DNA of 64,000 nucleotides from Bacteroidales bacterium CF (GTDB taxonomy: Bacteria; Bacteroidota; Bacteroidia; Bacteroidales; UBA932), in contig CP006772.1 in the NCBI GenBank assembly GCA_000473305.1, forward strand, positions 1,674,001 to 1,738,000, in the 5' to 3' direction. The notes under the pieces were generated by a model. It ran no database searches, had not been told where the DNA came from, and worked only from the letters and a program-made list of their open reading frames with translations. Positions 11,401 to 41,930 of this stretch are shown here, piece by piece (within the stretch, counting starts at the first letter, position 1; every line of letters starts with the position of its first letter). The translations under genes and the position numbers were made by a program.

Positions 11401-11694
11401 CTGAAGATAAACACCCGGTATTTTATCGAAGTAGCAACAGAGATGTTCACAGACTGGATACCTCAGCTCTCCGGGGTCGGATTCCAGGCAATATGGTCGG
11501 GTTACTACACAGAGCCACGCTACATAATAGACCCCGAGGCAGGCTTATTCGTGGGAATGCGCGGCCACGGCTTCATGCTCTCACAATACCTTGCAAAAGT
11601 ATATGTGGACAGCCTGCTCGGAAGAGCTGTCCCGGATTACTTCAGCGAATTGCGACTCGGCGGCAAGGGGCTCAGTGAGCAAGCGTTTAAGTGA
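8446..11694 (+). CDS. Multidomain FAD/Fe-S oxidoreductase (HcnABC / sarcosine-oxidase-like fusion)
   Basis: A 1082-residue protein. Residues about 15-85 are a 2Fe-2S ferredoxin-like domain (CGIGKCGACEMLVDG). A pyridine-nucleotide-disulfide type FAD domain follows (AIIGAGPAGLAVREEL; second nucleotide site LTVGAGNIGY), then a 4Fe-4S region (CIGCMQCVHQCPG), a BFD-like 2Fe-2S domain (CHCEDVTVEK, GACRGNRCVPRARTLL), and from about residue 705 a DAO/GlpO-type FAD domain (ALIAGGGIAGSSLFRYL, VGMRGHGFMLSQYLAK). These modules equal the A, B and C chains of hydrogen cyanide synthase, proline dehydrogenase complexes or heterotetrameric sarcosine oxidase. An amine or imino-acid substrate is the best inference. 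Its TGA stop lies on the first bases of a REP copy, and a hairpin terminator follows. Confidence 0.85.
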   Translation: MYKITEHPILPIPVEDRVEFTFEGQKVVGQRGFTIAAALHQAGLVVHKHSLEHRERTLECGIGKCGACEMLVDGRVRRICITKVDEVKDVRRIDESYMPEGIEYPGGLKPAIRVFKTTVAIIGAGPAGLAVREELCKAGVDNLVIDNNSKIGGQFVMQTHQFFFFEKEKRFGGMRGFDIASNLAGEDHTGIILDSVIWDIVEGKRLIAKNIATQEVFYIDTEQIVVATGAVPFMPAFKNDDLPGVYTAAVVQRMMNKELTLLGKKILTVGAGNIGYLTSYQAMQAGAGVKAIIEAMPSEGGFPVQANRVRRLGIPILTSHILLEAIPNEDRTGITGAIIAKCENFKPIAGTETLVEDIDCINICTGLIPDNQLFRKGIEVFGRKCHGVGDSVKIGEGTSAVLRGRQCAYEVMQDLGIRYNYDNYLSISKEYIDSQQHPVRILEEPLKPSKERMESKGFVQIDCLYGFACNPCSFACKYGAITKSSTSTVPRIDFDKCIGCMQCVHQCPGLAIFGYQFNKNWLFLPIEYKANEGVEVYLVNNNGEKVGEGVIEKILKSDNKTNVARVKATNLEGEELLKVRGFIVKENYPEPLRLLKLGQPHDAKSYICHCEDVTVEKLLSVIGDRKVISSDELKHISRIGMGACRGNRCVPRARTLLRAYGIEVLGEPTPRGPMSNLVNLGEMVNKNREERVILPDVSPNKGQREVKKVAALIAGGGIAGSSLFRYLSEAGYKPYLINDGLGSSWRNIAGGRPAFSLPALADIAMHNLEIFRALNEKTHIDFKLTRYVNLAHDEETYKSLDLSRAWSDAYMVDKKDFRKEISPYFNTSLSTYSHALITNNCWQANPGLTIDAVRHIGRNLGGTILENTKLIDVCRDGKEYHVILQTPDREYLEFRTEIFINALGGNADKFAKKLGIETGLYPVKHQAFITKRLPMLGKDGANLDMIIDRRKYKGFSAVYGQQLAETGQIIGCASPAIDAKETGKNLKINTRYFIEVATEMFTDWIPQLSGVGFQAIWSGYYTEPRYIIDPEAGLFVGMRGHGFMLSQYLAKVYVDSLLGRAVPDYFSELRLGGKGLSEQAFK

Positions 11695-11786
11695 TGGCAC
11701 TGATTTTTTCTTAACAAACAATAGCTAAGCGCCTGTAAATGTAGTATTTACAGGCGCTTTATTTTTAGTGGCACTGATTTTTCTAA
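11692..11786 (+). repeat. REP-terminator-REP cassette, copy 1
   Basis: Two direct copies of the REP-like word bracket a terminator hairpin. The first (11692-11713) is degenerate and reads AGTGATGGCACTGATTTTTT, including the TGA stop of the oxidoreductase gene. The second (11768-11786) is a perfect GTGGCACTGATTTTTCTAA. A second cassette with the same layout and similar spacer lies at 39823-39915. Confidence 0.85.
11727..11766 (+). terminator. Rho-independent terminator after the oxidoreductase
   Basis: A perfect 14-bp stem, AAGCGCCTGTAAAT and its complement, around the loop GTAGT, followed by TATTTTTA. It sits between two REP copies. Confidence 0.9.
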
Positions 11787-12399
11787 TCGCTTAATATTCT
11801 AACATTTGCACTTTCGTTTGACAGATATTTATGGAAGTGATGAAATTTCGGGGATATATAAAAACTTCATGGGGCCTCACCCCTTCCGGAATAATGCCCC
11901 ATTACTTAACCTAAACTTAAACTATGAAAAACTTCGATTTAAAAAATACAAACTCTGTGCCAAAGTTTAAATTTTTGAAAATATTTTTAATTTTTTTCTG
12001 TTTTTAAAGAAATTTTTCTTATATAAAGATCTGAATTCGCTTAATAGGCTTCAATTTATTATCAAATATGTGATATTTCTATTGGTAGAAAATCTTAGCA
12101 AATGACATTATAACCGGTAAAAAATCTATACACAGGCAAAATTAATTTGACAATTATATTCTGACGGTTATAAATAATTTAATAATATTTTGTGGGGCAT
12201 AAAGTGACAATAAATTTCTGACGGTTATAAAAATTTGACAATTAAGATTTCCAAGTAGTAATTAGTATATTCCATGCAATAATTAGAGTTTCAAAAAATT
12301 CAGTCCTCTGTAATAATGTTCATACAACTAAGTTAATAAACTATGTGTTTATCTTACATGATGCGGAGTTATTCTACAATTATCTTACACGATGAGGAG
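11787..12399. other. AT-rich intergenic region, 613 bp, no gene seen
   Basis: Very AT-rich with stops in all frames. It contains two copies of TCTGACGGTTATAAA (near 12160 and 12219) and two of TTGACAATTA (near 12148 and 12236), so a segment of about 90 bp looks partly duplicated. A short GGGGC...GCCCC dyad lies near 11873-11899. No recognisable RNA gene or promoter could be assigned. Confidence 0.5.
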
Positions 12400-12410
12400 T
12401 TATTCTACAA
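12349..12410. repeat. 31-bp tandem duplication at the uvrD 3' end
   Basis: Two adjacent 31-bp units (12349-12379 and 12380-12410), each reading TTATCTTAC...GAGTTATTCTACAA, with two differences. The second unit contains the uvrD stop codon (complement of 12400-12402), so the duplication copied the gene end into the intergenic region. Confidence 0.8.
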
Positions 12411-15156
12411 CGCGGAGCTTCGCGAACTTCAAGAGTAATGTTTTTTTGCCACCTTGTTCAAAATCCACAATAGCTTTTGCATTCAGGGCATCACCCTCCA
12501 GTTCGAGCAGTGTTCCGAAACCAAATCTGTCATGTTCAACTTTCAGGCCAACTTTCAATTTTGAAATAGGGTCTGCCTTGAAATCCGGATCGGCCGGCTT
12601 CCGGAACGTAGTCGACGGGCGAAATACATTTCGCGCATCGCCGGATGAACTCTTGTCATTTGAAGGGTTACCTGCACGATCTCGATATTGAGAACCGGGG
12701 CTTCCGTTCCATGTACCGGAACCGGATCGGTCATGAGATCCTGACCCGGATCTGTTATATGACCCGAAAGCGGATCTGTCGTATGAACCGGAACTGCTTC
12801 TTTCATAATTACCGGAAGTCGTTCTGTCATCATTCCCGGAACCTGATTTATCACGAAAACGATTATCGGAGCGGGATGTTCCGCTATTGGAAAGAGAGCT
12901 CATCGATACCAGATTGTAATCATCACCGCCCATCTCACTTTTCATATCAGGCCAGTCAAGGTATTTTGGATCTATCTCTCTCAAAAACCTGCTTGTAGGA
13001 TAATTTACATGAGAGCCCCATCTGAAACGTGACTGGGCGTACGATAGCGTAACATTCAACTTTGCCCTCGTCAGTGCAACATAAAATAGTCTTCTCTCCT
13101 CCTCCAGATCTGTCTCCTTGATCCCGGACATACTGCCCGAAGGGAAAAGGTTCTCCTCCATACCTACCACATACACATAAGGGAATTCCAACCCTTTTGC
13201 CGAGTGGACAGTCATAAGGCTGATCTTGTTAGAATCCTCGGGGGCATTATTCTCGTCGATAGCACTTAGAAGCGCTATATTCTCTATATAATTTGAGAGC
13301 GAGACCAAAGGGTTTGAGTTGCTGCCCTGTCCATCCGGCACTTGCACATCTAAATCAGAATCGTCGGTGAGAGGTGAAGTGGAAGAAGTGGAAGAAGCGG
13401 GTGAAGTGGAAGAAGCGGATGAAGCGGATGAAGCGGATGAAGCGGATGAAGCGGAAGAGTTGGAAGAATTGGAAGAGATGGAAGAATTGGAAGAGTTGGA
13501 ATCTAAAGCGGGTTTTGCTGACTCAGGATCATTGTTTATTTCACCTGTCTCTTCTACCTCCTCTACAAAAGCCTTGATACTGTTCATCAACTCCTCAACG
13601 TTGTCAAGGCGGGCCTGACCTTCAACCGATGTATCGGACCTGAGATAGTCCATATAACCCGATTTCACCAGAACCTCCATGGCAATATCATAGACATTGT
13701 AGGTCGCAACTTTGGCACTGATCTCTGCAATCATCTTTGCAAACTGGAAAAGCTTGCCGGCGGCGGCCTGCTTGATGCCCATAGCACTCATCTGCCCCTC
13801 CATCATAGCTTCCCAGAGAGAGACCCCTGCCGAGTTGGCCGCCGCCGTCAGACACGAGACTGTTGTGTCACCAATTCCTCTCGGAGGAACATTGACAATC
13901 CGCCTGAAAGCCTCATCATCCTTTTTATTGAGCAGCAGCCTCAGATAAGAGATCATATCCTTAACCTCAGCCCGCTCATAAAAAGAGTGCCCCCCATAAA
14001 TCTTGTAGGGTAACGAACGTTTCCTCAAAGCCTCCTCAACAGCACGCGATTGAGCATTTGTTCTGTACAGGACAGCAAAATCACCATAAGAAGCCTTATC
14101 CTGATAAATCCTGGCCAAAACCGAAGAGGCAAGCATAAATGCCTCCTCCTGATCTGTATACGCATTCATTACAGATATCTTCTCCCCCTCAGCCGCCGAA
14201 GAGAAACACTCCTTCTTTATCTGCATCGAATTCCTTGCAATCAGACTATTAGCTGCCTTTACAATTGTCTGAGTAGAACGATAATTCTGCTCCAGACGGA
14301 ACTCCTTAGCCTCAGGGTAATCCTTCCTGAAATTCAAAATGTTCTCTATCCTCGCTCCCCGGAACGAGTATATACTTTGAGCATCATCCCCTACAACACA
14401 CAGATTTCTGTGAACAGAGGCCAGTTTCTTGACTATCAGATATTGAGAATAGTTAGTATCCTGATACTCATCTACAAGAATATATGAAAACCTTGATCTG
14501 AGCTTCTCAAGAACCTGCGGAAAATCACGAAGCAAAATATTTGTATATACAAGAATATCATCAAAATCCATTGCTCCGGCCTGTTTAAATTTCTTATGAT
14601 AAAGAGCATAAATCTCCCCTATCCTGGGCTTCTTGGCAGCAGCATCATTTTGAGCCAGAGTAGCATTGCTGAGATAAGCAGCCGGAGTAACCAGGTTGTT
14701 CTTAGCCATTGATATCCTGGAAAGCACCTCATTTGGCTTATATATCTTCTCATCCAGAGAGAGCTCTTTGACACAAGCCCTTATAGCACTTCTGGAATCA
14801 GATGTGTCATAAATAGTAAAACTCTTGGGAAAACCGAGCAATTCAGCATCTTCCCTGAGAAATTTCACAAAAACAGAGTGAAATGTACCCATCCATAAAT
14901 TTCTGGCCACATCATAACCCACAAGAGAGGCTATCCTCTCCTTCATCTCCTTAGATGCCTTGTTTGTGAATGTAAGTGCCAGCACCGAACCGGCCTTGTG
15001 TCCATGGTCCAGAATATTAGCAATCCTGCAGGTTAGCACTCTCGTTTTTCCGGATCCCGCTCCCGCCACTATCAAACAGGGGCCGTCAAATTGCTCAACT
15101 GCCTGACTTTGAGCACTATTCAGCCCTTCGTAAATTGTTGAAAAATCAGTCTTCAT
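12400..15156 (-). CDS. uvrD: UvrD/PcrA-family 3'-5' DNA helicase
   Basis: About 918 residues from the ATG at 15156 (MKTDFSTIYEGLNSAQSQAV); an upstream in-frame extension lacks similarity and crosses the nqrA promoter, so it is rejected. Motif I is VAGAGSGKTRVLTCRIANIL, Walker B is FSYILVDEYQDTNYSQY, motif III is GDDAQSIYSFRGARIENIL, motif IV QNYRSTQTIVKAAN, motif V TVHSAKGLEFPYVYVVG, motif VI RRLFYVALTRAK. It unwinds DNA in excision and mismatch repair and clears replication forks. Two oddities: a Ser/Ala-rich insert of about 45 residues encoded at 13376-13510, and a Gly/Ser/Arg/Asp repeat tail at 12560-12880. The gene is divergent from nqrA with a 52-bp gap. Confidence 0.9.
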   Translation of the reverse strand: MKTDFSTIYEGLNSAQSQAVEQFDGPCLIVAGAGSGKTRVLTCRIANILDHGHKAGSVLALTFTNKASKEMKERIASLVGYDVARNLWMGTFHSVFVKFLREDAELLGFPKSFTIYDTSDSRSAIRACVKELSLDEKIYKPNEVLSRISMAKNNLVTPAAYLSNATLAQNDAAAKKPRIGEIYALYHKKFKQAGAMDFDDILVYTNILLRDFPQVLEKLRSRFSYILVDEYQDTNYSQYLIVKKLASVHRNLCVVGDDAQSIYSFRGARIENILNFRKDYPEAKEFRLEQNYRSTQTIVKAANSLIARNSMQIKKECFSSAAEGEKISVMNAYTDQEEAFMLASSVLARIYQDKASYGDFAVLYRTNAQSRAVEEALRKRSLPYKIYGGHSFYERAEVKDMISYLRLLLNKKDDEAFRRIVNVPPRGIGDTTVSCLTAAANSAGVSLWEAMMEGQMSAMGIKQAAAGKLFQFAKMIAEISAKVATYNVYDIAMEVLVKSGYMDYLRSDTSVEGQARLDNVEELMNSIKAFVEEVEETGEINNDPESAKPALDSNSSNSSISSNSSNSSASSASSASSASSASSTSPASSTSSTSPLTDDSDLDVQVPDGQGSNSNPLVSLSNYIENIALLSAIDENNAPEDSNKISLMTVHSAKGLEFPYVYVVGMEENLFPSGSMSGIKETDLEEERRLFYVALTRAKLNVTLSYAQSRFRWGSHVNYPTSRFLREIDPKYLDWPDMKSEMGGDDYNLVSMSSLSNSGTSRSDNRFRDKSGSGNDDRTTSGNYERSSSGSYDRSAFGSYNRSGSGSHDRSGSGTWNGSPGSQYRDRAGNPSNDKSSSGDARNVFRPSTTFRKPADPDFKADPISKLKVGLKVEHDRFGFGTLLELEGDALNAKAIVDFEQGGKKTLLLKFAKLRVVE
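13376..13510 (-). repeat. 9-bp microsatellite inside uvrD encoding a Ser/Ala-rich insert
   Basis: On the plus strand GAAGCGGAT is repeated in tandem, with GAAGTGGAA and GGAAGAATT variants beside it. The units are multiples of three, so the frame stays open; on the gene strand they encode SSA, SSN and SST repeats. The insert lies between conserved helicase motifs and is not a family feature. Confidence 0.7.
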
Positions 15157-15180
15157 TGGCACAAAATTATAAATATTGTG

Positions 15181-15189
15181 TATCTTTGC
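15181..15189 (+). promoter_or_regulatory. -7 element for the nqr operon
   Basis: TATCTTTGC matches the Bacteroidetes TAnnTTTGC -7 consensus, 20 bp before the nqrA ATG at 15209. A TTGGCA-like -33 candidate starts near 15156, overlapping the start of the divergent uvrD gene. Confidence 0.6.
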
Positions 15190-15208
15190 CGCAAAATTTT
15201 TCACAATA

Positions 15209-16585
15209 ATGTCAAACCATATTCGATTAAGCAAAGGTTTGGACATTCCTTTAAAAGGAAATGCCTCAAACCAAATCACTAAAACCATCTCTTCGGATAT
15301 TCTTGCTGTGAAACCCTCTGACTTCAGGACTCTCAACCCAAAACTTCTTGTAAAAGAAGGAGATGCAGTCAAAGCCGGTTCACCAATCTTGGCAGACAAA
15401 ACTAATCTATCAATACAAATCTGCTCACCGGTGAGTGGAGTTGTTAAAGAGATAGTAAGGGGTGAAAAACGCAAACTGCTTGCAGTACTTATCCATAACG
15501 ACAAAAAGTACGAACACATTCAGTTTAACGTTCCAAACCCAAAAACTGCAATAAAAGAAGAGATTGTCAACGTTTTGTTGGAGAGCGGACTATGGCCCGT
15601 AATCAAGCAACGCCCTTACGGAATTACCCCGAATCCTGCAATTGAGCCGAAGGCTATCTACATTTCAGGATTTGACTCATCACCACTTGCTCCTGATCTT
15701 GACTTCACCCTCAAATCAGAAAAAGAGTCGCTTCAGGCGGGTATTGATGTACTCAATCTTCTTACAAAGGGTGGCATTCACCTTAGCCTGCACATAAACA
15801 ACCACGCAGGCAGTCCTTTCCACAGACTTGAAAGGGTGATATTCCACACAATAGAAGGGCCTCATCCTGCAGGAAACGTAGGCATACAGATCAACAACAT
15901 CGACCCTGTAAACAAGGGCGAGGTAGTATGGACAATTGACATGTACGGGGTTGCCGCAATAGGTAAGCTTTTCACAAAGGGAATCTACGACATCAAAAAG
16001 ACAATTGCCATAACCGGTCCGAGATGCGTTAATCCAAGTTATGTTGAATGTCTTCCCGGCATGTGCATGAGTGACATAAAAGAATATGCAGGCCACATAG
16101 CCAAAAGCGCCGGTGACGAACTACCGGTAAGGTGGATAAGCGGAAACGTTCTTACTGGTACCAATGTTGGAGCAGAAGGATTCTTAGGATTTTACCACAA
16201 TCAGATCACCCTCATATCAGAAGGAAACTACTACGAGATGTTCGGATGGATTAAGCCTTTCAGGTCAAAGAAATTCAGCATTTCGCACACATATTTCTCA
16301 TGGCTGACTCCGAAGAAGAGTTATGAGTTGGACACCAACACAAACGGCGCTGAGAGAGCCTTTGTCATGACAGGCGTTTATGAGAAAGTGCTCCCTATGG
16401 ACATTTATCCGACATACCTTCTAAAGGCAATTCTTGCAGAAGATATTGACAACATGGAGGCTCTGGGCATCTATGAAGTTATCGAGGAAGATCTGGCACT
16501 CTGTGAATTTGTATGCCCTTCCAAGATAGATGTACAAGAGATTGTATCAAAAGGAATAGATTTGATGATTAAAGAAATGTCTTAA
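15209..16585 (+). CDS. nqrA: Na+-translocating NADH:quinone reductase subunit A
   Basis: 458 residues from ATG 15209 (MSNHIRLSKGLDIPLKG), the family N terminus; a longer upstream extension is rejected because it crosses the promoter. The RnfC/NqrA pattern is present: a barrel-sandwich region with SPVSGVVKEIVRGEKRK, then the central SLBB-like part and a C-terminal helical domain without Fe-S cysteine motifs, as expected for NqrA. It is the cytosolic-face subunit linked to quinone binding in the six-subunit sodium pump. First gene of nqrABCDEF, with nqrB 10 bp downstream. Confidence 0.95.
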   Translation: MSNHIRLSKGLDIPLKGNASNQITKTISSDILAVKPSDFRTLNPKLLVKEGDAVKAGSPILADKTNLSIQICSPVSGVVKEIVRGEKRKLLAVLIHNDKKYEHIQFNVPNPKTAIKEEIVNVLLESGLWPVIKQRPYGITPNPAIEPKAIYISGFDSSPLAPDLDFTLKSEKESLQAGIDVLNLLTKGGIHLSLHINNHAGSPFHRLERVIFHTIEGPHPAGNVGIQINNIDPVNKGEVVWTIDMYGVAAIGKLFTKGIYDIKKTIAITGPRCVNPSYVECLPGMCMSDIKEYAGHIAKSAGDELPVRWISGNVLTGTNVGAEGFLGFYHNQITLISEGNYYEMFGWIKPFRSKKFSISHTYFSWLTPKKSYELDTNTNGAERAFVMTGVYEKVLPMDIYPTYLLKAILAEDIDNMEALGIYEVIEEDLALCEFVCPSKIDVQEIVSKGIDLMIKEMS

Positions 16586-16595
16586 TAAAATAGAG

Positions 16596-17765: not shown

Positions 17766-17770
17766 GGAGG
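17764..17770 (+). promoter_or_regulatory. Strong Shine-Dalgarno for nqrC
   Basis: AAGGAGG lies 6 nt before the nqrC ATG at 17777. This is unusual in a window where most starts have no clear Shine-Dalgarno, and suggests higher initiation at nqrC than elsewhere in the operon. Confidence 0.7.
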
Positions 17771-17776
17771 ATTACA

Positions 17777-18538: not shown

Positions 18539-18546
18539 GTTGAACG

Positions 18547-21130: not shown

Positions 21131-21261
21131 GTGGCACAGATTTTTCTAATTACAAGACATTTAGGATGTTGAAAAAACATCAATTATTTGGTGAATAATA
21201 ACCAAATAATCAATATATTATAAGCAGCATATCTATTGTTGATTAGAAAAATCTGTGCCAC
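21131..21261. repeat. 131-bp MITE-like element with REP termini, copy 1
   Basis: Bounded by inverted copies of the REP-like word: GTGGCACAGATTTTTCTAAT at 21131-21150 and its complement at 21242-21261. The interior has a 10-bp stem ATTATTTGGT / ACCAAATAAT (21183-21192 and 21201-21210) and an AATATATT palindrome. A second element of the same length lies at 22754-22884, about 87% identical by eye. Together they flank the PDZ-protein gene. Confidence 0.85.
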
Positions 21262-22678: not shown

Positions 22679-22698
22679 GTGGCACAGATTTTTCTAAT
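22679..22698 (+). repeat. Solitary REP copy upstream of the PDZ gene
   Basis: GTGGCACAGATTTTTCTAAT, exact A-type REP word, 47 bp upstream of the PDZ-protein start. It is in plus orientation and is not the end of either 131-bp element. Confidence 0.85.
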
Positions 22699-22753: not shown

Positions 22754-22884
22754 GTGGCACAGATTTTTCTAATTAGAAGACATTTAAGATGTTGAAAAAA
22801 ATTCAATTATTTGGAGAATAACGACCGAATAATCAACGCGTTATAAATAGCACATCTATTGTTAATTAGAAAAATCTGTGCCAC
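22754..22884. repeat. 131-bp MITE-like element with REP termini, copy 2
   Basis: Same length and termini as the element at 21131-21261. Differences include the central palindrome, AATATATT in copy 1 and AACGCGTT here, both self-complementary, and the internal stem, where one pair becomes a G-T wobble. Its right end overlaps the 3' end of rsmF and supplies the gene's last codons and stop. Confidence 0.85.
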
Positions 22885-27817: not shown

Positions 27818-28447
27818 ATGTACAGCTTATTTTTCAACAATCGCCGCATTGCGGTATGTTCTAATAGTGACAAATACCAAAAAGAGCCTTCAGCCGTACA
27901 TTACATCCCCGGAACCGACCAAGGAATAGAAGAACTTCCCTATATCTTTGAAAAATTATCACATGTAAATTGGCTCACAGTGGTCACTTCCGATGAAGAG
28001 GCCACCTTTGATTGCCTTTGCAAAAAGCTTACCAGAATTAATGCCGGAGGCGGTGTTGTGACTAATGACGACGGAGAGGTGCTCCTCATCTATCGCAACA
28101 ACCACTGGGATCTTCCGAAAGGCAAGCAGGAGAAGGGAGAGAACATAGAAGACACTGCAGTAAGAGAGGTCGAGGAAGAGTGTGGGATTAGCAACATTCA
28201 GCTAAAAGATCTGATATGCAAGACATACCACACGTATATCAACAAAGCGGGAGATCTCACAGTCAAAAGCACCTACTGGTATCAAATGGAGTATCACGGC
28301 GTAGACAAAACCACCCGGCCGCAGACAGAGGAGAACATTGAGCAGGCAATATGGGTCAAACCCTCCTCCCTCCCCGAATATCTCAGCAACACATATCTTT
28401 CTATTCTGGATGTATTTTCAGTGGCACAGATTTTTCTAATTCATTGA
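27818..28447 (+). CDS. Nudix hydrolase
   Basis: 209 residues. The Nudix box is complete near residue 105: GKQEKGENIEDTAVREVEEE followed by CGI, matching GX5EX7REUXEEXGU. A variable N-terminal domain of about 75 residues precedes it. The substrate (a nucleoside diphosphate linked to X) is not determined. The last residues, SVAQIFLIH, are encoded by a REP copy in the frame GTG GCA CAG ATT TTT CTA ATT, so the natural C terminus was probably a little shorter. Confidence 0.88.
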   Translation: MYSLFFNNRRIAVCSNSDKYQKEPSAVHYIPGTDQGIEELPYIFEKLSHVNWLTVVTSDEEATFDCLCKKLTRINAGGGVVTNDDGEVLLIYRNNHWDLPKGKQEKGENIEDTAVREVEEECGISNIQLKDLICKTYHTYINKAGDLTVKSTYWYQMEYHGVDKTTRPQTEENIEQAIWVKPSSLPEYLSNTYLSILDVFSVAQIFLIH

Positions 28448-28727
28448 TCTCGCAATCAATTGTTATTCAACCAGATACAGACTCGTTGATTTTAGTGGCA
28501 CAGATTTTTCTATCTTCCACATTGTCAATCAAATACAACCGGCAATTATATAGGCACTTCTTAGAAAAATGTGTGGCACACATTTTTCTAAATCCCACAA
28601 TACCAGACAAATATAATTAGTTATTAAACAGACTGATAGAAAAATCTGTGCCACTAATTTTATCAAGCTCAAATCTCATTGAAAAACAACAGGTTATTGA
28701 GTCATGAATTAGAAAAATCTGTGCCAC
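28421..28727. repeat. Symmetric REP cluster between the Nudix and lolA-like genes
   Basis: Five sites: plus copies at 28421-28440 and 28495-28512, a near-perfect palindrome TTAGAAAAATGTGTGGCACA.. at 28561-28591, and minus copies at 28637-28654 and 28708-28727. The arrangement is mirror-symmetric about the central palindrome. The outermost copies touch the 3' ends of the two convergent genes. The cluster fills the 284-bp gap and could fold into nested hairpins. Confidence 0.85.
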
Positions 28728-29492: not shown

Positions 29493-29507
29493 GTGGCACA
29501 GATTTTT
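29493..29507 (+). repeat. Truncated REP copy left of the IS4 element
   Basis: GTGGCACAGATTTTT, lacking the CTAA end. It is A-type and lies between the lolA-like gene and the insertion sequence. Confidence 0.7.
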
Positions 29508-29691
29508 GCAGTTGTCTGTTATTGTGCGTTTTATCATAATTAGGGTATTAAAGTCGTTAAAATAATCAATTAATAAAAAATCACAAACACAATAAGCTGT
29601 ATAATTAAACACATTGAAGACTACTATTATTAATCACATATAAGGAATCCTTGCTATTAATAATGTAAAAGTCAGCTTTATTAATCACATA

Positions 29692-31016
29692 TACTAATGA
29701 TGCGTTAAGCGACGCATTTGCGCTTGTAACTTATTAATATCATATAATTTATATCAGTTCTTTGACAACTTCGATTTGAAATGAGTTCGTAATTTCGCGG
29801 GCTAAACCCCGCTGATTATGAATGAAGGCAAGTATATCTTAACTCAAGTCACCAATCTCATTCCCAGGCAGATCTTCTTGCGACTTATCAAGAAGTATAA
29901 CGGAGACTATCGTGTAAGGGAGTTCAACTGCACAAACCAACTGCAACATCTTCTTTTCGGTCAGCTGACATCCTGCGAATCGTTAAGAGACATCTGCTTG
30001 TGCTTAAAGCAGCACAAGGATATCCTTTACGGGCTTGGAATCAAGAACTCGGTCAACGAGTCCTCTTTATCCAGAGCCAATGAGAGCAGAGACTGCCGCA
30101 TTTATGAGGGACTTGGGCTGACACTCATCAAGATCGTTCGCCCATTGTATGCCAAAATGCGTCTTGAGTATCTTGTGCCTCAGGATCATGAAATCTTTGC
30201 CCTTGATTCTACGACCATATCCTGCAGCATCAAGTTGATGGAATGGGCTATGGGCAAGTATAGTAAAGGTGCGGTTAAAATGCATACTCTCATAGACTTA
30301 AGAGGGAGTATCCCTGTCTTCATCTATATCAGTGATGGACGCTGTCACGACAGTAATGTGCTCGACCTGTTGGATATTGTTCCCAACGCCATCTATACGA
30401 TGGATAAAGCCTATGTGGACTTTGAAGCACTTGCCCGCATTAATGAAAACGGCGGCTTCTTTGTTACCAGAGCCAAGGACAACATGAAGTACGAGATTGT
30501 ATCTAGTAACCACAATATTGACCAGTCCACTGGGCTGATGGAGGATCTCCTAATACGCCTTACAGGCAATAAATCCAGCAAACTTTACCCGAAAGAACTT
30601 CGCCTCATAAAGTATTGTGACTTAGAGACAGGTGAAGGGCTTTCATTCATCACCAACGTGACCGACCAACTGGATCTCAATGGATTAGAGATATCCAATA
30701 TCTACCGTCATCGATGGGATATTGAGTGCTTCTTCAAACTCATAAAGCAGAACCTCACAATCAAGCACCTCTGGGGATGCTCCGAGAATGCTGTCAGGAC
30801 CCATTTGTGGGTTGCGATATGTTCCTATCTTCTGTTAGCAAGAGTCAAGGCAATATACAACAGCCCTTACTCAATCACAGAAATCGCAACATTGGTCAGA
30901 GTGTCTGCTCTTGCTAAAAAGGACCTGAAGGAACTTGTGACAGAGCCACAACCACTCATTCAAAATCAAGATGTCAATGAACTTACTTTGTTTTAAAAAT
31001 TAACGCATCAGTAGTA
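29692..31016 (+). mobile_element. Complete IS4-family insertion sequence, 1325 bp
   Basis: Terminal inverted repeats TACTAATGATGCGTTAA (29692-29708) and the complement of TACTACTGATGCGTTAA (31000-31016) differ at one base in 17. Both ends are flanked by the direct repeat AATCACATA (29683-29691 and 31017-31025), a 9-bp target duplication. One intact transposase gene is inside. A GCGGG/CCCGC stem at 29797-29811, just before the transposase start, could limit translation of read-through transcripts. The host site is the ftsK to lolA intergenic region. Confidence 0.88.
29818..30996 (+). CDS. IS4-family DDE transposase
   Basis: 392 residues. An N-terminal DUF4372-like region (residues 10-80) precedes the RNase-H-like DDE core. 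First Asp in IFALDSTTISCS, second in IYTMDKAYVDFEAL, and the Glu in YRHRWDIECFFKLIKQN, which fits the IS4 signature Y-x2-R-x3-E-x6-K exactly. The frame is intact, so the element is potentially active. Cut-and-paste transposition would use the 17-bp ends. Confidence 0.93.
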   Translation: MNEGKYILTQVTNLIPRQIFLRLIKKYNGDYRVREFNCTNQLQHLLFGQLTSCESLRDICLCLKQHKDILYGLGIKNSVNESSLSRANESRDCRIYEGLGLTLIKIVRPLYAKMRLEYLVPQDHEIFALDSTTISCSIKLMEWAMGKYSKGAVKMHTLIDLRGSIPVFIYISDGRCHDSNVLDLLDIVPNAIYTMDKAYVDFEALARINENGGFFVTRAKDNMKYEIVSSNHNIDQSTGLMEDLLIRLTGNKSSKLYPKELRLIKYCDLETGEGLSFITNVTDQLDLNGLEISNIYRHRWDIECFFKLIKQNLTIKHLWGCSENAVRTHLWVAICSYLLLARVKAIYNSPYSITEIATLVRVSALAKKDLKELVTEPQPLIQNQDVNELTLF

Positions 31017-31159
31017 AATCACATACATTAAATTAATTGATTACCTCATAGATAACAGCTTGCAGATTTCACTCAATTAAGTTGTTGTTGGAAAACTTTA
31101 GATTAAAAATAATAAGCTGACATCGAGATGTTTATAAAGTATTAAAAATCATATAAATG

Positions 31160-31333
31160 CAAAAATCAGTGCCACTAAAATCAATCACGAATCATTAAAA
31201 GATTGATTAATAGACAGATATAAAAATCAGTGCCACTAAAAGTAAATAAAACAAACAAAAAATGAAATATTGCTCTGAAAATTAGCTATTTATAAAATCC
31301 TAAAAGTCAGACAAATGCAAAAATCAGTGCCAC
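31160..31333 (-). repeat. Three truncated REP copies before the ftsK stop
   Basis: Minus-orientation copies at 31160-31175, 31221-31236 and 31318-31333, each reading AAAAATCAGTGCCAC without the terminal TTAG. The last one overlaps the TAG stop of ftsK. All are T-type, whereas copies on the other side of the IS are A-type. Together with the IS end they fill the 336-bp gap after the transposase gene. Confidence 0.8.
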
Positions 31334-35186: not shown

Positions 35187-35295
35187 GATAAGTCAAGATT
35201 ATTATTAGTTTTTTCTCTTGATGTGAATTTTAATTTATCTTGATGATAATTTTTAATTTTTCTTGATAATAATAAATAATTTCAGTTGATTTTAA

Positions 35296-35949
35296 TTATT
35301 TATTCCTCTTTATAATATTCCCCTTCTTCTTTCCGGGCCTGAAATTACGATGCATGTTACGCGATGAGGTATGTCCGGCATTGTGAATATTTCCGCTGTT
35401 TCCCTGAGGAACAGATGTGCTCAGGTGCATTTCCGCAGGAATTGAAAGCCTTCCGCCGGAAAGAGCGACAATATCTTTAAAAATAGTCTCTTCCGTAACA
35501 GTGTCCTTATTCCAGATAAGATACTGCTGACGCATATAATTGGCAAGAACATGAATCATGCCGTCTCTGACCTCTCCCTCTTCCTTTTCCGCAACTAAAT
35601 CAATCATATTCTGAATATTACGGCCATAATGAGCAGCTTTCAGCGGAGTCTTTTCCAATGGAATCGGATTGGGTTTATTCACAAAGGTCTCTCTTGTAGG
35701 AGTCGGATAAGGAGAATCTATATCTATCTGAAAATCCGATATTATCTGAACGTGATCCCAGAGCTTGTGCTTGAAATCGTTGATGTCCCTGAGCTGAGGA
35801 TTAAGAATACCCATCACCCCCACAACCGCGCGGATCTGCTCGTTCCTCTTTTCTCTGTCCTTTATGTTCATGACATGGTCTATCATCTTCTGTACATGCC
35901 TTCCGTACTCCGGCATTATCAGTTTAGACCTCTGAGTATTGTAATCCAT
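35296..35949 (-). CDS. DUF4290 family protein
   Basis: 217 residues. The N terminus MDYNTQRSKLIMPEYGRHVQ and the block RAVVGVMGILNPQLRDINDF are characteristic of this Bacteroidetes family, usually next to murA. The C terminus is basic (RPGKKKGNIIKRNK), suggesting contact with nucleic acid or membrane phosphate, but the function is unknown. It starts 1 bp after the stop of the antiterminator gene and is probably co-transcribed with it. Confidence 0.85.
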   Translation of the reverse strand: MDYNTQRSKLIMPEYGRHVQKMIDHVMNIKDREKRNEQIRAVVGVMGILNPQLRDINDFKHKLWDHVQIISDFQIDIDSPYPTPTRETFVNKPNPIPLEKTPLKAAHYGRNIQNMIDLVAEKEEGEVRDGMIHVLANYMRQQYLIWNKDTVTEETIFKDIVALSGGRLSIPAEMHLSTSVPQGNSGNIHNAGHTSSRNMHRNFRPGKKKGNIIKRNK

Positions 35950-35950
35950 A

Positions 35951-36469
35951 TTAATCTTTATTCAATTTGTTTACCTCTGACAAAGATACATAAATTTTAG
36001 CACCAAGTTCCTCTAAAAATAGTGTTACTCTGTTCTTGTCAACTTTAAGCACCTTGCCGCTTTTATCTTTTAAAGCACCCCCAATTATCTCAACCTGGTC
36101 ACCCTCATAAATAATATCCTTATCCTCGGCGATCTTCAGGAACTCCTTGACAGCCTCAATCTCCTCATCCCTCACGACGGCAGGACGTTGCAGATAGTAG
36201 ACAATACGTGTCACTCCATAAACCAGCAGAAGCTTTCTCAGTTGATGTTCAGGACACCTGACAAAAACATATGAGTTAAACAACGGAAGGTCAACAACTT
36301 TCATCCGGTCGCTCCACTTCCGCCTGATTCTGTGTATTGGAAGGTAAGTCTCTACGCCCATCTCGCGCAGCCGCGCCTCGACCTTTTTCTCGGCGCGCGC
36401 GGCGGTGTATAGTACGAACCAATTTAGTGGCACTGATTTTTCTAAATTACTCTTTATCAAGGCGCACAT
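35951..36469 (-). CDS. NusG-like transcription antiterminator, UpxY type
   Basis: About 172 residues from ATG 36469. The NGN domain begins at WFVLYTAARAEKKVEARLRE and a KOW domain follows (YEGDQVEIIGGALKDKSGKV). UpxY proteins load on nascent polysaccharide-operon transcripts to suppress termination. A REP copy lies in the 5' coding end: residues NLEKSVPLN just before the NGN domain are encoded by it, on the opposite orientation to the 3'-end copies. A start further upstream (36559) would add another REP-encoded stretch and is rejected. It sits after wecB, 8 kb from the capsule locus. Confidence 0.85.
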   Translation of the reverse strand: MCALIKSNLEKSVPLNWFVLYTAARAEKKVEARLREMGVETYLPIHRIRRKWSDRMKVVDLPLFNSYVFVRCPEHQLRKLLLVYGVTRIVYYLQRPAVVRDEEIEAVKEFLKIAEDKDIIYEGDQVEIIGGALKDKSGKVLKVDKNRVTLFLEELGAKIYVSLSEVNKLNKD

Positions 36470-36547
36470 ATTATTCCTAATTTTTATATAGTTATCTGTA
36501 ATTTTTTTGAGGTTTGATTTTCTGCTATTTAGAAAAATCAGTGCCAC
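36427..36547. repeat. Inverted REP pair between wecB and the antiterminator gene
   Basis: GTGGCACTGATTTTTCTAA at 36427-36445 and its complement at 36529-36547. The left arm is in the coding region of the antiterminator, the right arm encodes the last residues of WecB. The 121-bp layout resembles the 131-bp elements but the interior is not obviously related. Confidence 0.85.
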
Positions 36548-37799: not shown

Positions 37800-37803
37800 T
37801 TGT

Positions 37804-37812
37804 GCAAAGATA
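37804..37812 (-). promoter_or_regulatory. -7 element for wecB
   Basis: TATCTTTGC on the minus strand, 4 bp upstream of the wecB ATG, predicts a very short or absent leader. Confidence 0.45.
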
Positions 37813-37909
37813 AAAAAACCGAACAAAATTGTCCGGTTTTATTAGTATTGTGCTTTTTAAAAGTGCACATCCAAGTGCCCGTAAAAGAGCACGTTCAATC
37901 TTAAAATCC

Positions 37910-38188
37910 TTATGCCTGAGCGTTTACCTCTGCAGCTTTTGGCAATACAGAGACAAATGATTTATTGTCAGCTTTCTTTCTGAAAGTAACAACACCGTCT
38001 ATAAGAGCATATAGAGTGTGGTCCTTACCGATACCGACATTCAAACCCGGATTGTGAACAGTTCCCCTCTGGCGTACAAGGATGTTGCCTGCTTTTGCTG
38101 TCTGTCCACCGAATAATTTTACGCCTAATCGTTTACTGTGTGATTCGCGGCCGTTCTTCGAACTACCGACACCTTTTTTGTGTGCCAT
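37910..38188 (-). CDS. rpmA: Ribosomal protein bL27
   Basis: 92 residues. [20 protein letters not shown] is the classic bL27 N terminus, followed by [20 protein letters not shown] and the [15 protein letters not shown] block. Component of the large subunit near the peptidyl-transferase centre. It lies 25 bp after rplU; the order rplU-rpmA is standard. Confidence 0.97.
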
Positions 38189-38213
38189 AATCTAAAATTT
38201 TCTTTTTTGTTAA

Positions 38214-38522
38214 TTAAGCGATCTCTTCGATTAAAATTTGAGTCAAGTACTGGCGATGACCATTTTTCTTGTCAAAACCTTTGCGGCGTATCTTCTTGAA
38301 AACGATAACTTTGTCACCTTTAAGATGTTCAAGTACTTTAGCCTTAACCGAAGCACCCTCCACATAAGGAGAACCAATTTTTACCTTTCCATCTTCATCG
38401 ATAAGTAAAACCTTGTCAAAGGACAAAGAAGCCCCTTGCTCTGCCTTAAGGCGGTTAACAAAGATTTTATTATCTTTCTCAACTTTAAATTGCTGTCCTG
38501 CAATGTCTACAATTGCGTACAT
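38214..38522 (-). CDS. rplU: Ribosomal protein bL21
   Basis: 102 residues. MYAIVDIAGQQFKVEKDNKI and the C-terminal FKKIRRKGFDKKNGHRQYLT are diagnostic for bL21. First gene of rplU-rpmA, with a well-formed Bacteroidetes promoter about 95 bp upstream; the intervening leader is long enough to hold an autoregulatory structure, but none was confirmed. Confidence 0.97.
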   Translation of the reverse strand: MYAIVDIAGQQFKVEKDNKIFVNRLKAEQGASLSFDKVLLIDEDGKVKIGSPYVEGASVKAKVLEHLKGDKVIVFKKIRRKGFDKKNGHRQYLTQILIEEIA

Positions 38523-38615
38523 ATAAAAAATATAATTATATTTTTGACCGTAAGCGGCTAACTAAATAGCTCTTTTTCAATAGCTTAACAATCTTTTTAC
38601 ATTTCAATCAGGAAC

Positions 38616-38648
38616 GCAAAGATATTATTATTTATTAATTAATCAAAA
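38616..38648 (-). promoter_or_regulatory. Promoter of rplU-rpmA
   Basis: On the minus strand TTTTG (38648-38644) and TATCTTTGC (38624-38616) are separated by 19 nt, matching the Bacteroidetes TTTG-N19-TAnnTTTG promoter. It leaves a leader of about 90 nt. Confidence 0.75.
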
Positions 38649-38755
38649 CATTTTTATTTTTGTATATACGAAAAGTAAGCCTACACTTGATTTTAGAATT
38701 AGATATCCAATCTTAGAAATATAGTATTAGATACCAAACCTACTTAAACAAAAAA

Positions 38756-39823
38756 ATGGAATCACCCTTCGTTTTTAACAAACCTGTAGCTGTTGCAGAC
38801 GCGATCCCCAGGATCAATGAAGTAAATGCAATTACAGAACGACTGACCAAAAACAAACACGTATTGGTTTACGAGCCGCCAAAAAGTGGAAAGAACTCAC
38901 TGATGCAGCAAGTATTCAACAAATTGAAGCAGGATCGTTATTCTTTCAAAGTCTGCAATGTCGATCTTTTCAACGTTCGTTCAGAAGCTGATTTGTTAAA
39001 AGCAATAAGGACGTCATTGGTAGAGTGTTTTGCTAAGAACGACAACGAAAAAGAGAAGTTGGAGGACGAACTGATGATCTCATATATACATGAGATGAAC
39101 GAATACAGGGATTTGGTTCTCAACCTTTCAGAAGCTCTTGCAAGTAAGTTTAATACAAACATAATTATATACTTTGCTGAATTTCAGGAAATTCTAAATT
39201 TCGAAAATCCTGACAAGACCCTAAAGCTCCTTGAGAGAGTCTGGAGAGATCATACTGGTACCACTTATCTGATTACTGGGTCTGAGTTGAATGCTATGAA
39301 GCAGATATTTGAAATAGACAAATACCTGTATAGGTATGCCGAAAGGGTTAAAATGCAGCAGATTCCGGAACTTCTTTTTTCCGAATTTATAATTAAGAAT
39401 TTTCTGAAAGCAGGAAGGGTTGTATCAAGGGAGTTAGTAACTCAAATCTACGAGTTTACAGAGGGGCATCCATATTACACACAACAGCTCGCAGAGATAT
39501 CTTTCTATAAGACAAAAGGTTTCATGACAGAACCAATACTACTTGAGTCTTTTGACGACCTCATTCAATGCCACGTTCACGAATTCAAGGCAAAAACAAG
39601 TCGATTGAGTAACTACCAGCTCTATTTGCTAAAAGCGATCATTGATGGAGTGACCAGATTCAGCGAGACTCAGGTTATGATTGACTACCACTTCAACTCC
39701 TCAGCAAATATTGTCCGCCTGAAGGAGGCAACGTTGAAAAAAGAGATACTTTGCAATGAAGGAGCAAAGTTGACCTTCCAGGATCCGATTTACAAGAAGT
39801 GGCTCAAGGATTTTTATTTTTAG
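38756..39823 (+). CDS. AAA-family ATPase, STAND/ORC-like, function unknown
   Basis: 355 residues. Walker A-like EPPKSGKNSLMQQVFNKL near residue 43 has PPKSGKNS in place of the usual GxxGxGK[ST]; the Walker B candidate is IIIYFAEFQEIL, and an arginine-rich helix and winged-helix-like C terminus (SNYQLYLLKAIIDGVTRF) follow. Such stand-alone ATPases are abundant in Bacteroidetes and some are linked to chromosomal mobile content. Its TAG stop is the TAGTGGCAC head of a REP copy. The neighbouring RAYT gene lies 180 bp away on the other strand. Confidence 0.7.
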   Translation: MESPFVFNKPVAVADAIPRINEVNAITERLTKNKHVLVYEPPKSGKNSLMQQVFNKLKQDRYSFKVCNVDLFNVRSEADLLKAIRTSLVECFAKNDNEKEKLEDELMISYIHEMNEYRDLVLNLSEALASKFNTNIIIYFAEFQEILNFENPDKTLKLLERVWRDHTGTTYLITGSELNAMKQIFEIDKYLYRYAERVKMQQIPELLFSEFIIKNFLKAGRVVSRELVTQIYEFTEGHPYYTQQLAEISFYKTKGFMTEPILLESFDDLIQCHVHEFKAKTSRLSNYQLYLLKAIIDGVTRFSETQVMIDYHFNSSANIVRLKEATLKKEILCNEGAKLTFQDPIYKKWLKDFYF

Positions 39824-39942
39824 TGGCACTGATTTTTTCTGAACAAATAATAGGCAAGCACCTGCATATCATGTATTTGCAGGTGCTTTATTTTTAGTGG
39901 CACTGATTTTTCTAACCAAAAAATTAGAAAAATCAGTGCCAC
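39823..39942. repeat. REP-terminator-REP cassette copy 2 plus inverted REP pair
   Basis: A plus REP (39823-39840), a terminator, a second plus REP (39897-39915) and an inverted copy (39924-39942) with an 8-bp spacer. The last two form a 19-bp perfect hairpin, the clearest BIME-like unit in the window. It lies 64 bp from the end of the RAYT gene. Confidence 0.9.
39856..39896 (+). terminator. Rho-independent terminator after the AAA-ATPase gene
   Basis: Stem AAGCACCTGCA / TGCAGGTGCTT followed by TATTTTTA. Compared with the cassette at 11727, paired bases have changed on both sides (GC to AT, TA to CG), so the stem is kept. Confidence 0.9.
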
Positions 39943-40005
39943 CAATAATTCTTAATAATTGAATTTCAGAGTTATAAGGCTTAAATAATATTCTACACAG
40001 GCCTA

Positions 40006-40803
40006 CTAGAAGGTCATGTCTTTTGATATCTGATATTTAGAAAAATCAGTGCCACACACCTTCCTGACAAAAGAGTACTCTTCATGAACATTCATAGCAA
40101 TCTGCTTGAATGTGGCGTTGGTATATTGGTTAAGAAATAGGATGAGCTTTTTGATACTTGTTTTGTCCAAATCATAAATCGAACGACCATCAAGAATTTT
40201 TCCGATTATAGAAATTAACTCTGGATTAGTAATTCTTGGATTTGTACTATCCCGGGTAAAACGATGATCTACCACCGGCATTTTGTAATCCGCAATTGCT
40301 GACAACAGTGATTTTTCATCTTTATAACACATATCCAATGCACTGGTATCTACCAATATATGTTTAGATAAATCAGTTTTTCCATTATGGTGAAAGCTGA
40401 ATGAATTCCATTGGTACTGATTTGGTTTCGAACAGATGCCGGCAACTACAGGATTGTTCAAAATATAAAAACAGTTTTCGATAATAAAATTTAGATTTCG
40501 CTTTGGGGCTGATTCAAAAGGCTTTGTAAACTGCTTTCCATGAATCTGATATGATTTATTATAATATCTTGAAAAGTCCATTAGTGCTCTTCTCATGAAT
40601 TCAGACAAACTACAACTCTCGACCTGTAAATGGAAATGGTTTGGCATCAGGCAAAACTCCAATATTTTAGTATTATGGGTAATAGCAGAGTTATTGATAC
40701 ACTCAAGAAATCTAATGTTGTCTTCCGGCTTTAGGAAAATCGTAGTTCTGTAATTACTAATGTTATAAACGTGAAATACCCCCTCCTGTAATCTCTTTCT
40801 CAT
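40006..40803 (-). CDS. REP-associated tyrosine transposase (RAYT), Y1_Tnp family
   Basis: About 265 residues from ATG 40803. The Y1_Tnp (PF01797) HUH motif is clear: LEFCLMPNHFHLQVE with HFH. FMRRALMDFSRYYNKSYQIHGKQF is the helix that carries the catalytic Tyr in relatives; which Tyr is used is not certain. IENCFYILNNPVVAGICSKP is the typical end of the core, and a C-terminal extension (TNATFKQIAMNVHEEYSF) resembles the DNA-binding tail. RAYTs process single-stranded DNA at REP hairpins. REP copies surround and invade the gene: the 3' end encodes CGTDFSK. The frame looks intact. Confidence 0.85.
   Translation of the reverse strand: MRKRLQEGVFHVYNISNYRTTIFLKPEDNIRFLECINNSAITHNTKILEFCLMPNHFHLQVESCSLSEFMRRALMDFSRYYNKSYQIHGKQFTKPFESAPKRNLNFIIENCFYILNNPVVAGICSKPNQYQWNSFSFHHNGKTDLSKHILVDTSALDMCYKDEKSLLSAIADYKMPVVDHRFTRDSTNPRITNPELISIIGKILDGRSIYDLDKTSIKKLILFLNQYTNATFKQIAMNVHEEYSFVRKVCGTDFSKYQISKDMTF
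40037..40055 (-). repeat. REP copy inside the RAYT gene 3' end
   Basis: TTAGAAAAATCAGTGCCAC on the plus strand; on the gene strand it encodes GTDFSK-type residues and translation continues for nine more codons before a stop at 40006. Confidence 0.85.
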
Positions 40804-40983
40804 AATCAACCCCGTTATTAGTAGAAAACCAATCTATTAAGTAACCTGAATTTATATAGTTAATACAACTTACAATGCAAATTGAGTTTTACCTGAAATA
40901 GAATTTATACTGCTAATCTAGTCGAAATGATTTGGCTGGATGATTAAGATCAGATAAACAAATTCAATAATTGGATATTTTTA

Positions 40984-41168
40984 TGGCACTGATTTTTCTA
41001 TATCATTGATTTTAAAATCATTGTGCCAACAAACTGTTTTACAACATCTTATCATTCATCTGAATCATTGTACTTTAGAAAAATCAGTGCCACACATATT
41101 TATTATTACTTGCTAACCAATAACTTCCAAACTATTATCAATGAGCAAATTAGAAAAATCAGTGCCAC
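40984..41168. repeat. REP triplet left of ubiX
   Basis: A plus copy (40984-41000, first base lost), and minus copies at 41075-41093 and 41150-41168. The segment between the two minus copies begins ACATATTTATTATTA and ends ATGAGC, as in the triplet at 41745-41930. The last copy provides the codons Trp-His and the TGA stop of ubiX. Confidence 0.85.
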
Positions 41169-41734
41169 TCATTCATCCACTTATTAGATGGATTTATGTC
41201 GGAGATTCCTGCGATAGCGATGATCCTGTCGGCAAATTGGTCTGTCAAATCATCCAAACTCGAAGGATTTGAATAGAAAGACGGGGAGGCAGGAGCGATG
41301 ATCGCGCCGGCTTCAGTCAATGTTTGTAAATTTCTTAAATGAATCAGAGAATAAGGTGTTTCCCTCGGCACTATTACGAGTCGCCGGCGCTCCTTGAGCT
41401 GAACCTCAGCAATTCTTGATATAAGATCAGATGTCGTGCCATTTGCTATGCGGCCGACAGTTCCCATTGTGCATGGAACAACAATCATCACGTCGGCTGC
41501 ATTCGACCCTGATGCATTCCTATTATAATATCCATGATTATCAAGGATTTTAACATTAGAGAATGTCCTGAATACTTCTATATTACCACCCGTTTCATCC
41601 ATGAAAACCTGCATACCGGTATCAGTAAAGGCTATATCCAATTCCATTTCCGGCATTTTTGCAACTTTCTCTATTACTTTCTTTGCATAAACCTGGCCAC
41701 TGGCCCCGGTTACGCCAATTACGATTCTTTTCAT
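41159..41734 (-). CDS. ubiX: Flavin prenyltransferase UbiX
   Basis: 191 residues. The flavoprotein fold signature RIVIGVTGASGQVYAKKVIE starts at residue 3, and VIVVPCTMGTVGRIANGTTS and RRLVIVPRETPYSLIHLRNL are family hallmarks. It makes prenylated FMN for UbiD-type decarboxylases. The last residues WH and the stop TGA are read from a REP copy (TGG CAC TGA). The gene is flanked by two related REP triplets, which may reflect duplication or transfer of the block. Confidence 0.95.
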   Translation of the reverse strand: MKRIVIGVTGASGQVYAKKVIEKVAKMPEMELDIAFTDTGMQVFMDETGGNIEVFRTFSNVKILDNHGYYNRNASGSNAADVMIVVPCTMGTVGRIANGTTSDLISRIAEVQLKERRRLVIVPRETPYSLIHLRNLQTLTEAGAIIAPASPSFYSNPSSLDDLTDQFADRIIAIAGISDINPSNKWMNEWH

Positions 41735-41744
41735 GATATTTTTA

Positions 41745-41930
41745 GTGGCACTGATTTTTCTAAAATTCTGATTTTAATAATATTATACTAATATATTGAA
41801 TTACATTGCTTTACCAATTGTTTAAACCATAGTATTTTAGAAAAATCAGTGCCACACATATTTATTATTAATTATCAATCAACAACTTACAAACATCTAT
41901 CAATGAGCTAATTAGAAAAATCAGTGCCAC
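41745..41930. repeat. REP triplet right of ubiX
   Basis: A plus copy (41745-41763) and minus copies at 41837-41855 and 41912-41930; same layout and length as the triplet at 40984-41168. The last copy encodes the C terminus SGTDFSN and supplies the stop of the next gene. Confidence 0.85.

Follow-up and report, generated by a model that had tools for sequence, protein, structure and literature searches.

In Pseudomonas, REPINs (doublets of repetitive extragenic palindromic, or REP, sequences forming hairpins) consist of two inverted copies of a conserved end, have preferred inter-end distances of 71 and 110 bp and are associated with genes for REP-associated tyrosine transposases (RAYTs); their spacer is less conserved than the ends, with its length, the hairpin and compensatory changes kept, according to the part of that study drawn on here (Bertels and Rainey 2011, PMC3116915). 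A second arrangement is that of the TIRYTs and TIRtrons, in which RAYT-like genes lie between terminal inverted repeats (TIRs), with some dispersed repeat families and many dimers; the sections of that report used here also state that GTAG REP termini often give a TAG stop to flanking open reading frames, that REPs are found chiefly where neighbouring genes converge or run in the same direction, and name Bacteroidetes for CGTC repeats only (Di Nocera et al. 2013, PMC3733652). Within the classification of TnpA-REP proteins, as far as its subclass descriptions go, subclass 2.6 comprises Bacteroidetes with atypical flanking secondary structures that have copies elsewhere, subclass 2.4 has GT[AG]G at one end and the complement at the other (a double foot) with the protein motifs NH[IFV]H and YIxNNP, and subclass 2.1 has a C-terminal helix-turn-helix (HTH) and terminal inverted repeats (Quentin et al. 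2018, PMC6006769). Here we analysed a 64,000-nucleotide stretch (hereafter the window; bases 1,674,001–1,738,000) of the 2,657,245-bp single-contig genome of Bacteroidales bacterium CF, coded G000, in which a first-pass annotation had noticed a 19-bp word, GTGGCACWGATTTTTCTAA, at the stop codons of eleven genes. The word is the outer end of palindromic hairpin-forming elements with a modal length of ~120 bp. These probably constitute a short non-autonomous REPIN/TIR-like family spread by a RAYT encoded in the window; their placement at stops seems to arise mostly through tolerance and through stop codons that the elements carry themselves.

The copy number of the word was determined in the window, in the whole genome, in a genus sample of 25 genomes including a sister species (G018), and in a family sample of 199 genomes from which G018 was not drawn. 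About 29 copies had been noted between 11.7 and 42 kb, close to the 28 window matches found at up to three mismatches (0 in 100 shuffles), a few of which are self-overlaps of the palindromic GTG-G-CAC head. Genome-wide, the exact 19-mer has 54 copies, 27 on each strand, and the exact 15-mer GTGGCACWGATTTTT has 93 (45 forward and 48 reverse), with six more at one mismatch; two-mismatch words are largely self-overlaps of the head, and no decay classes are claimed. Within the genus the exact 15-mer is confined to G000 (93 copies) and G018 (57 copies), being absent from the other 23 genomes, and in the family sample it was seen in G000 plus a single copy each in two other genomes. The FtsK of G000 had its best matches in uncultivated Bacteroidetes assemblies (66–71% in the best segment), in a comparison set that may omit the genome itself or a close one. 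No Rfam family matched the window at gathering score. The copies are concentrated around one gene: at most 30 kb separates 25 of the 93 words from the window RAYT, where ~2 would be expected by length, and the densest cluster in G000 contains this gene (40006–40800). Multiplicity, inverted pairing, hairpins and a RAYT in the densest cluster agree with the REP-like nature that had been proposed for the word.

Ordered along G000, 66 of the 93 exact words form 33 convergent pairs and 27 are unpaired, some of the latter with a degenerate partner 82 or 111 bp away. The pair lengths were 46, 81, 82 (two), 86, 96, 101, 111 (four), 119–122 (15), 131 (two), 132, 151, 160 (two) and 165 bp, so that, as in REPINs, two inverted copies stand at a preferred distance (119–122 bp in 15 of 33). 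All 33 pairs fold as hairpins, with energies from −20 to −85 kcal/mol. Same-strand neighbours recur as well, at a spacing of 73–75 bp (7 of 14 neighbours within 320 bp), a class to which the one-mismatch and exact words at 11694/11768 also belong. The word begins with GTGG, and the only inner palindrome noticed in it by eye is GTG-G-CAC. Because the head GTGGCAC points outward at both ends of an element, any adjoining 3′ end meets the same head. The constant orientation of the word towards genes had been taken as a signal, on the argument that random insertion would not give one polarity; this argument fails, since a symmetric element shows GTGGCAC at either end by construction.

Within G000, the interiors of the 15 elements of 119–122 bp had a mean identity of 62%, against 64% when shuffled, while their ends match and their length is held. 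On the inner side of the word, the arms of an element covary relative to shuffled partners, in G000 at positions 16 and 19–22 and in G018 only at 16 and 19; position 26 leans towards a retained mismatch between the arms. Thus the elements have a variable spacer, a constrained length and a hairpin maintained by compensatory change, and they resemble the Pseudomonas REPINs, as portrayed in the part of that paper used, in their doublets, preferred distances, drifting spacer, kept ends and hairpin, and RAYT. They differ from them in belonging to another phylum, in a word in which no self-contained hairpin beyond GTG-G-CAC was seen, in number (93 exact ends here versus ~1000 there) and in the many ends that lie in coding tails. 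With the TIRYTs and TIRtrons, on the sections cited, they share repeat-flanked RAYT-like genes, dispersed dimers, stops at repeat edges and the preference for certain gaps; the TIRYT motif GGGGWSAS, however, occurs in neither the window word nor any perfect arm at 30 RAYT loci of the genus, the arm at L126 being close by eye. Among the records listed for RAYT/REPIN with Bacteroidetes/Bacteroidales, terminal inverted repeats and stop codon in an open-access library, no title or abstract opening dealt with such words in Bacteroidales. The stop-codon observation itself is not new in kind, since a repeat-edge TAG stop is described for GTAG REPs in the sections of Di Nocera et al. referred to above.

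The putative mobilizing enzyme is encoded on the minus strand at 40006–40800. This 264-residue protein matched the Pfam family Y1_Tnp at 39.8 bits (cut-off 23), identifying it as a Y1 HUH transposase, and carries the motifs NHFH and YILNNP in alignment, with FT in place of the expected WQ by eye. An HTH was matched only below threshold, in two of seven relatives, and not in the window protein. With NHFH, YILNNP and FT for WQ it fits none of the signatures of subclasses 2.1, 2.4 and 2.6 fully, in so far as those are set out in the text cited, and we regard it as a distant member of the REP-associated Y1 type. The gene is flanked by its own repeat: a minimal 46-bp hairpin made of two words (39897–39942) and a minus-strand word within the final RAYT codons (40037–40055) on one side, and a 111-bp pair upstream of its start, one end of which is degenerate (ATGGCAC; 40983–41093), on the other. 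The final codons traverse a word (CGTDFSKYQISKDMTF). A RAYT match within ~1.5 kb of ubiX is also present in G002, G007, G021 and G022, which suggests that the RAYT near ubiX is a long-resident locus. Two further RAYT-like matches were seen in G000, at C1:1769054–1769701 and 425489–426232, and no close relative of the window RAYT was confirmed in the wider genome contigs.

Across the genus, a RAYT homologue was present in 22 of 25 genomes. Some inverted repeat of at least 12 bp, the shorter of which may be chance, was found at 26 of 30 RAYT loci (none at L115, L127, L128 and L134); 16 loci had arms of at least 20 bp spanning 105–150 bp, and 11 had arms of at least 15 bp on both sides of the gene. 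By eye, the repeat sequence tracks the RAYT tree, with GCCTCAGAGG in one clade and CCCCAGGGG, ACCTTGCCACAG, TCTCCGCGCC and CACTTTGGCGC in others. Three words that were counted reach 1 to 74 copies per genome having them: CCTCAGAGG occurs in seven of 25 genomes (1–33 copies), CTCCGCGCC in four genomes at 48, 70, 74 and 51 copies and once in G000, and CACTTTGGCGC at six copies in G000, five in G018 and one in G017. These families also have nearly fixed pair lengths when counted in partly overlapping loci, namely 104 bp in 23 of 25 CCTCAGAGG pairs, and 124–125 or 135–136 bp in 20 of 22 CTCCGCGCC pairs, two classes ~11 bp apart.

The position of the word was also analysed relative to stop and start codons. 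In the window, each offset counts from where the stop ends to the word's first G, a negative value meaning that the stop overlaps or lies inside the word or element. The eleven genes listed in the first-pass annotation were all correct: the TGA of the FAD/NAD oxidoreductase gene (8446–11694) overlaps the one-mismatch word ATGGCACTGATTTTT by one base, and the offsets were +5 for PDZ, −23 for rsmF, −27 for Nudix, +4 for LolA, −1 for ftsK, −23 for wecB, −1 for the AAA ATPase, −50 for RAYT, −10 for ubiX and −23 for the phosphoesterase, with all three reading frames in use at gene ends. The window contains 25 exact 15-mers, of which ten, to which the one-mismatch word adds a further case, are at a stop and 15 are not. 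Genome-wide, genes were called with a simple hexamer script rather than an annotation pipeline on 307,926 bp of fragments around the words (254 genes), the RAYT start being set by hand; called stops are surer than called starts. Of the 93 words, 85 were outermost, seven stood behind another word and one lay well inside a called gene. The outermost words faced a stop in 53 cases and a start in 32, and the bias towards stops holds across the genome: 23 stops versus two starts were within 10 bp, and 15 versus none within 5 bp. The stop offsets cluster at −23 (five), −10 (five), −1 (seven) and +3 to +8 (11), with 37 of the 53 stop-facing ends at 12 bp or less and none at 13–46 bp.

The clustering agrees with the stops that the element and its flank supply. 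Together with the AT-rich flank (outer consensus TAATTTTA, with T at −3 in 96%), the element offers one frame with TAA at −8, TAG at −2 and, in the T form, TGA at +8, and its consensus has a stop ~20 bases inside in another frame, so that an insertion in the last codons of a gene tends to create its own stop. Indeed, the stop overlaps or sits inside the element in 25 of the 53 stop-facing ends. The gaps that hold words (n = 45) comprised 14 convergent, 26 tandem and five divergent ones, and those lacking words 22, 135 and 25 respectively; 15 of the 22 convergent gaps lacking a word are already 28 bp or shorter. When words were placed uniformly within a gap plus 30 bp of gene end, 19.4 ± 2.0 stop-near gaps were expected and 29 of 45 were observed (0 of 5000 runs as high), with read-through accepted up to 60 bp in the observed class and up to 30 in the simulation. 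The tight stop positions that had been put forward are therefore real, and much of their tightness is geometry and element-borne stops.

Taken together, these results make it probable, in our judgement, that the word forms the terminal repeats of a non-autonomous family mobilized by the window RAYT. The Y1 transposase would recognize the word ends, bind and cleave them, and spread the elements; new copies would enter AT-rich or T-rich DNA, as the flank consensus suggests, which in a compact genome would mean the last codons and stop, convergent gaps or the T-tract behind a terminator. Selection would remove insertions deep within genes, and a copy landing in the last codons would give the protein a short tail with its own stop, so that the word would look fixed to stops, the outward symmetry presenting the same head to each gene. 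We infer that the stop bias combines a preference for AT/T-rich DNA with purifying selection inside genes, as well as how it divides between the two. The stop-codon pattern is real; in our reading it arises chiefly from the symmetry of the elements and the stops they carry, together with compact gaps and selection. Transposition, like any RNA role of the elements, is read here from patterns in the DNA.

The comparison of G000 with its sister species bears on this account in both directions. In the 10 of 33 pairs that could be compared (16 lacked both flanks and seven, numbers 1, 2, 3, 4, 6, 51 and 53, were dropped), the word was identical at 297 of 300 positions, the interiors at 79.8% and the flanks at 88.6%, the word figure being inflated because recognizable words were needed in both genomes. 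That inflation is one of several points that weigh against the proposed account. No clean empty site was found between G000 and G018: where G018 lacks a full element at three G000 pairs (136660, 146931 and 323704), it has short remnants at two and other DNA at the third, and of 36 G018 items, 22 were placed in the word-bearing G000 pieces to which this search was directed, 20 at an exact word and two at a degenerate one. Because these differences include no clean gain or loss, we call the elements REPIN-like rather than proven REPINs. The window RAYT scored 43 bits against NCBIfam REP_Tyr_transpos, under the curated cut-off of 80 (its seven genus relatives score 34–56), and no solved structure was related to it by sequence. 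Its orthologue was not found in G018 despite the 57 words there, an absence that is uninformative because that assembly also lacks close ubiX, rsmF and wecB matches. In the genus, 14 of 30 RAYT loci lack a long-armed 105–150-bp repeat; G011 has 74 CTCCGCGCC copies, yet its RAYT examined (L121) belongs to another clade; and the second G000 RAYT, at 425489, has its own CACTTTGGCGC repeat in only six copies. Finally, gaps with a word near a start were neither favoured nor depleted (4 observed versus 3.8 expected), and tolerance alone may not suffice, since stop-abutting words exceed the uniform null. As separate observations, one orthologous element seems, by eye, to have its interior inverted (G000:2136731–2136850 versus G018 L142:13048–13167), and the window segment 23500–43400, which holds rsmF, wecB, RAYT and ubiX, has 52 short matches only in G018, many of them the words themselves, reflecting either missing data or a real difference.

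The alternative that survives best, which we consider possible and clearly less likely, is that the transposition machinery itself prefers stops or transcript 3′ ends, for example through a TAA-containing AT-rich target or through terminators. Beyond the excess of stop-near gaps (29 of 45) and the 37 of 53 ends close to a stop, it draws on orthologues: in UbiX, RsmF and WecB, whose relatives lack the word, the insertion site is no more than about three codons from where the proteins of relatives end. In addition, TCTCCGCGCC, which belongs to another RAYT clade, stands directly or one base after the rsmF stop in three (G011, G022 and, as a degenerate copy, G007) of the 15 genomes whose rsmF tail could be read, and at once or one base after the ubiX stop at one of 18 loci (G011). 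A terminator-like T-tract also directly precedes seven of the 93 words, compared with 48 of 4000 random and 72 of 3000 AT-rich intergenic points. However, part of the G000 excess is built in, as the element makes the stop in 25 of 53 cases; only tolerated insertions survive to be observed; and 32 of the 85 outer ends face starts. Moreover, in the CCTCAGAGG family (G016 and nine G010 pieces) the stop was inside the element in only two of 28 stop-facing ends, and the other 26 were at least 16 bp from the pattern, beyond which the element may in truth extend by a few bp.

A role at RNA 3′ ends, with the hairpin, once transcribed, shielding mRNA or terminating transcription and selection retaining it there, appears unlikely. 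The stability of the hairpins, the covariation of their arms, the retention of ends while interiors drift and the excess at 3′ ends are all compatible with it, as are two composites in which a word directly behind a stop is followed by an intrinsic-terminator-like hairpin and, at 74-bp spacing, a second word: one at 11694–11786 (plus strand), with the one-mismatch word at the oxidoreductase stop and the exact word 74 bp on, and one at 39823–39915 (plus strand), with a word at the TAG stop of the AAA ATPase gene. By eye, their stems differ by paired changes. Against such a role, the flank consensus reads TAAAATTA past the closing end of the element and has no T-run after the hairpin, a separate terminator-like hairpin lies just outside in seven of 93 cases, and words are also found before start codons and between divergent genes (five of 45 gaps). 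A DNA hairpin used in transposition would equally predict the covariation and the constant length.

We give a similarly low probability to the idea that the ends are now held by selection as paired recognition sites at helically phased distances (~82, 101, 111, 120 and 131 bp), the elements being no longer mainly selfish. They would have inserted at stops and come to define gene ends as DNA bridges or 3′ hairpins, with the interior drifting to saturation and the same course followed in parallel by genus RAYT lineages with different words. Across G000, the end-to-end spacings of 82, 101, 111, 120 and 131 bp step by ~10 bp. Among the 18 pair lengths (of 33) that fall outside the modal class, a periodicity of 9.5–10 bp had an approximate p of 0.003–0.008, which serves as a lead only, as the period was picked post hoc and copies may share descent.

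It is less probable still that the elements are miniature inverted-repeat transposable elements belonging to a DDE transposon that has the same terminal repeats. They do have terminal inverted repeats and a preferred length, the words at 29493 and 31175 enclose a DDE_Tnp_1/DUF4372 transposase gene, and identical flanks of at least 4 bp occur at two of 33 pairs (0.27 in shuffles), one of them 8 bp long and palindromic. The insertion sequence encoding this transposase, situated within the word cluster at 29689–31019, nevertheless has its own 20-nt ends (29689–29708 and 31000–31019); its transposase gene occurs once in the G000 pieces searched, with a 35% relative in G018; at the other 31 pairs no duplicated flank reaches 4 bp; and comparable repeats elsewhere in the genus flank RAYTs. 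The candidate was rejected on its own ends and the rarity of flanking duplications. That the word is a conserved protein tail or a chance repetition, as the recurrence of SGTDFSN/CGTDFSK in unrelated proteins might suggest, has practically nothing in its favour, because the UbiX, RsmF and WecB orthologues have no such tail, and the word is absent from 23 of 25 genus genomes, does not arise in shuffles and also lies outside genes.

The remaining window copies are arranged as follows. Inverted pairs of 131 bp lie between the convergent oxidoreductase and PDZ genes (21131–21261; hairpin −49.1 kcal/mol) and at 22754–22884, where the right end forms the rsmF C-terminus (SGTDFSN); a plus-strand outer word at 22679–22697, which faces the called PDZ start, has its next same-strand word 75 bp away. 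At 28421–28727 pairs are nested (outer 28421/28727; inner 28495/28654, 160 bp), with the Nudix and LolA gene ends at the edges and, near 28561–28591, a palindrome with a variant word inside. A plus-strand word with a variant inner end (GCAG) is found at 29493–29511, 74 bp ahead of the LolA start, and three minus-strand words (31175, 31236 and 31333) occupy 31157–31333, the last giving the G of the ftsK TAG stop. The right end of a 121-bp pair (36427–36547) forms the wecB C-terminus (CGTDFSK). Around ubiX, a minus-strand word at 41150–41168 supplies its …WH-TGA end, and a 111-bp pair (41745–41855) has its left head 10 bp from the start codon; 75 bp from the word at 41855, another minus-strand word (41912–41930) lies in the last phosphoesterase codons. 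Four outermost words, at 22679, 29493, 36427 and 41745, face called start codons, the calls being uncertain.

In the way they work, the elements resemble a REPIN or TIR family served by its cognate Y1 transposase, with incomplete membership, as the RAYT is below the curated score and no self-contained REP hairpin was seen. The finding is ordinary in principle and rich in detail, a Bacteroidales form of the RAYT-linked inverted-repeat elements described in the sources quoted at the outset. It carries a general pitfall, in that symmetric, stop-carrying mobile elements mimic stop-codon signals when read gene by gene. It also brings into the range of REPIN/TIR-type families and their cognate Y1 transposases a little-known genus of Bacteroidales, in which several parallel word families follow the RAYT clades, and these parallel families form a natural set for the study of the RAYT recognition code and of the persistence of repeats.

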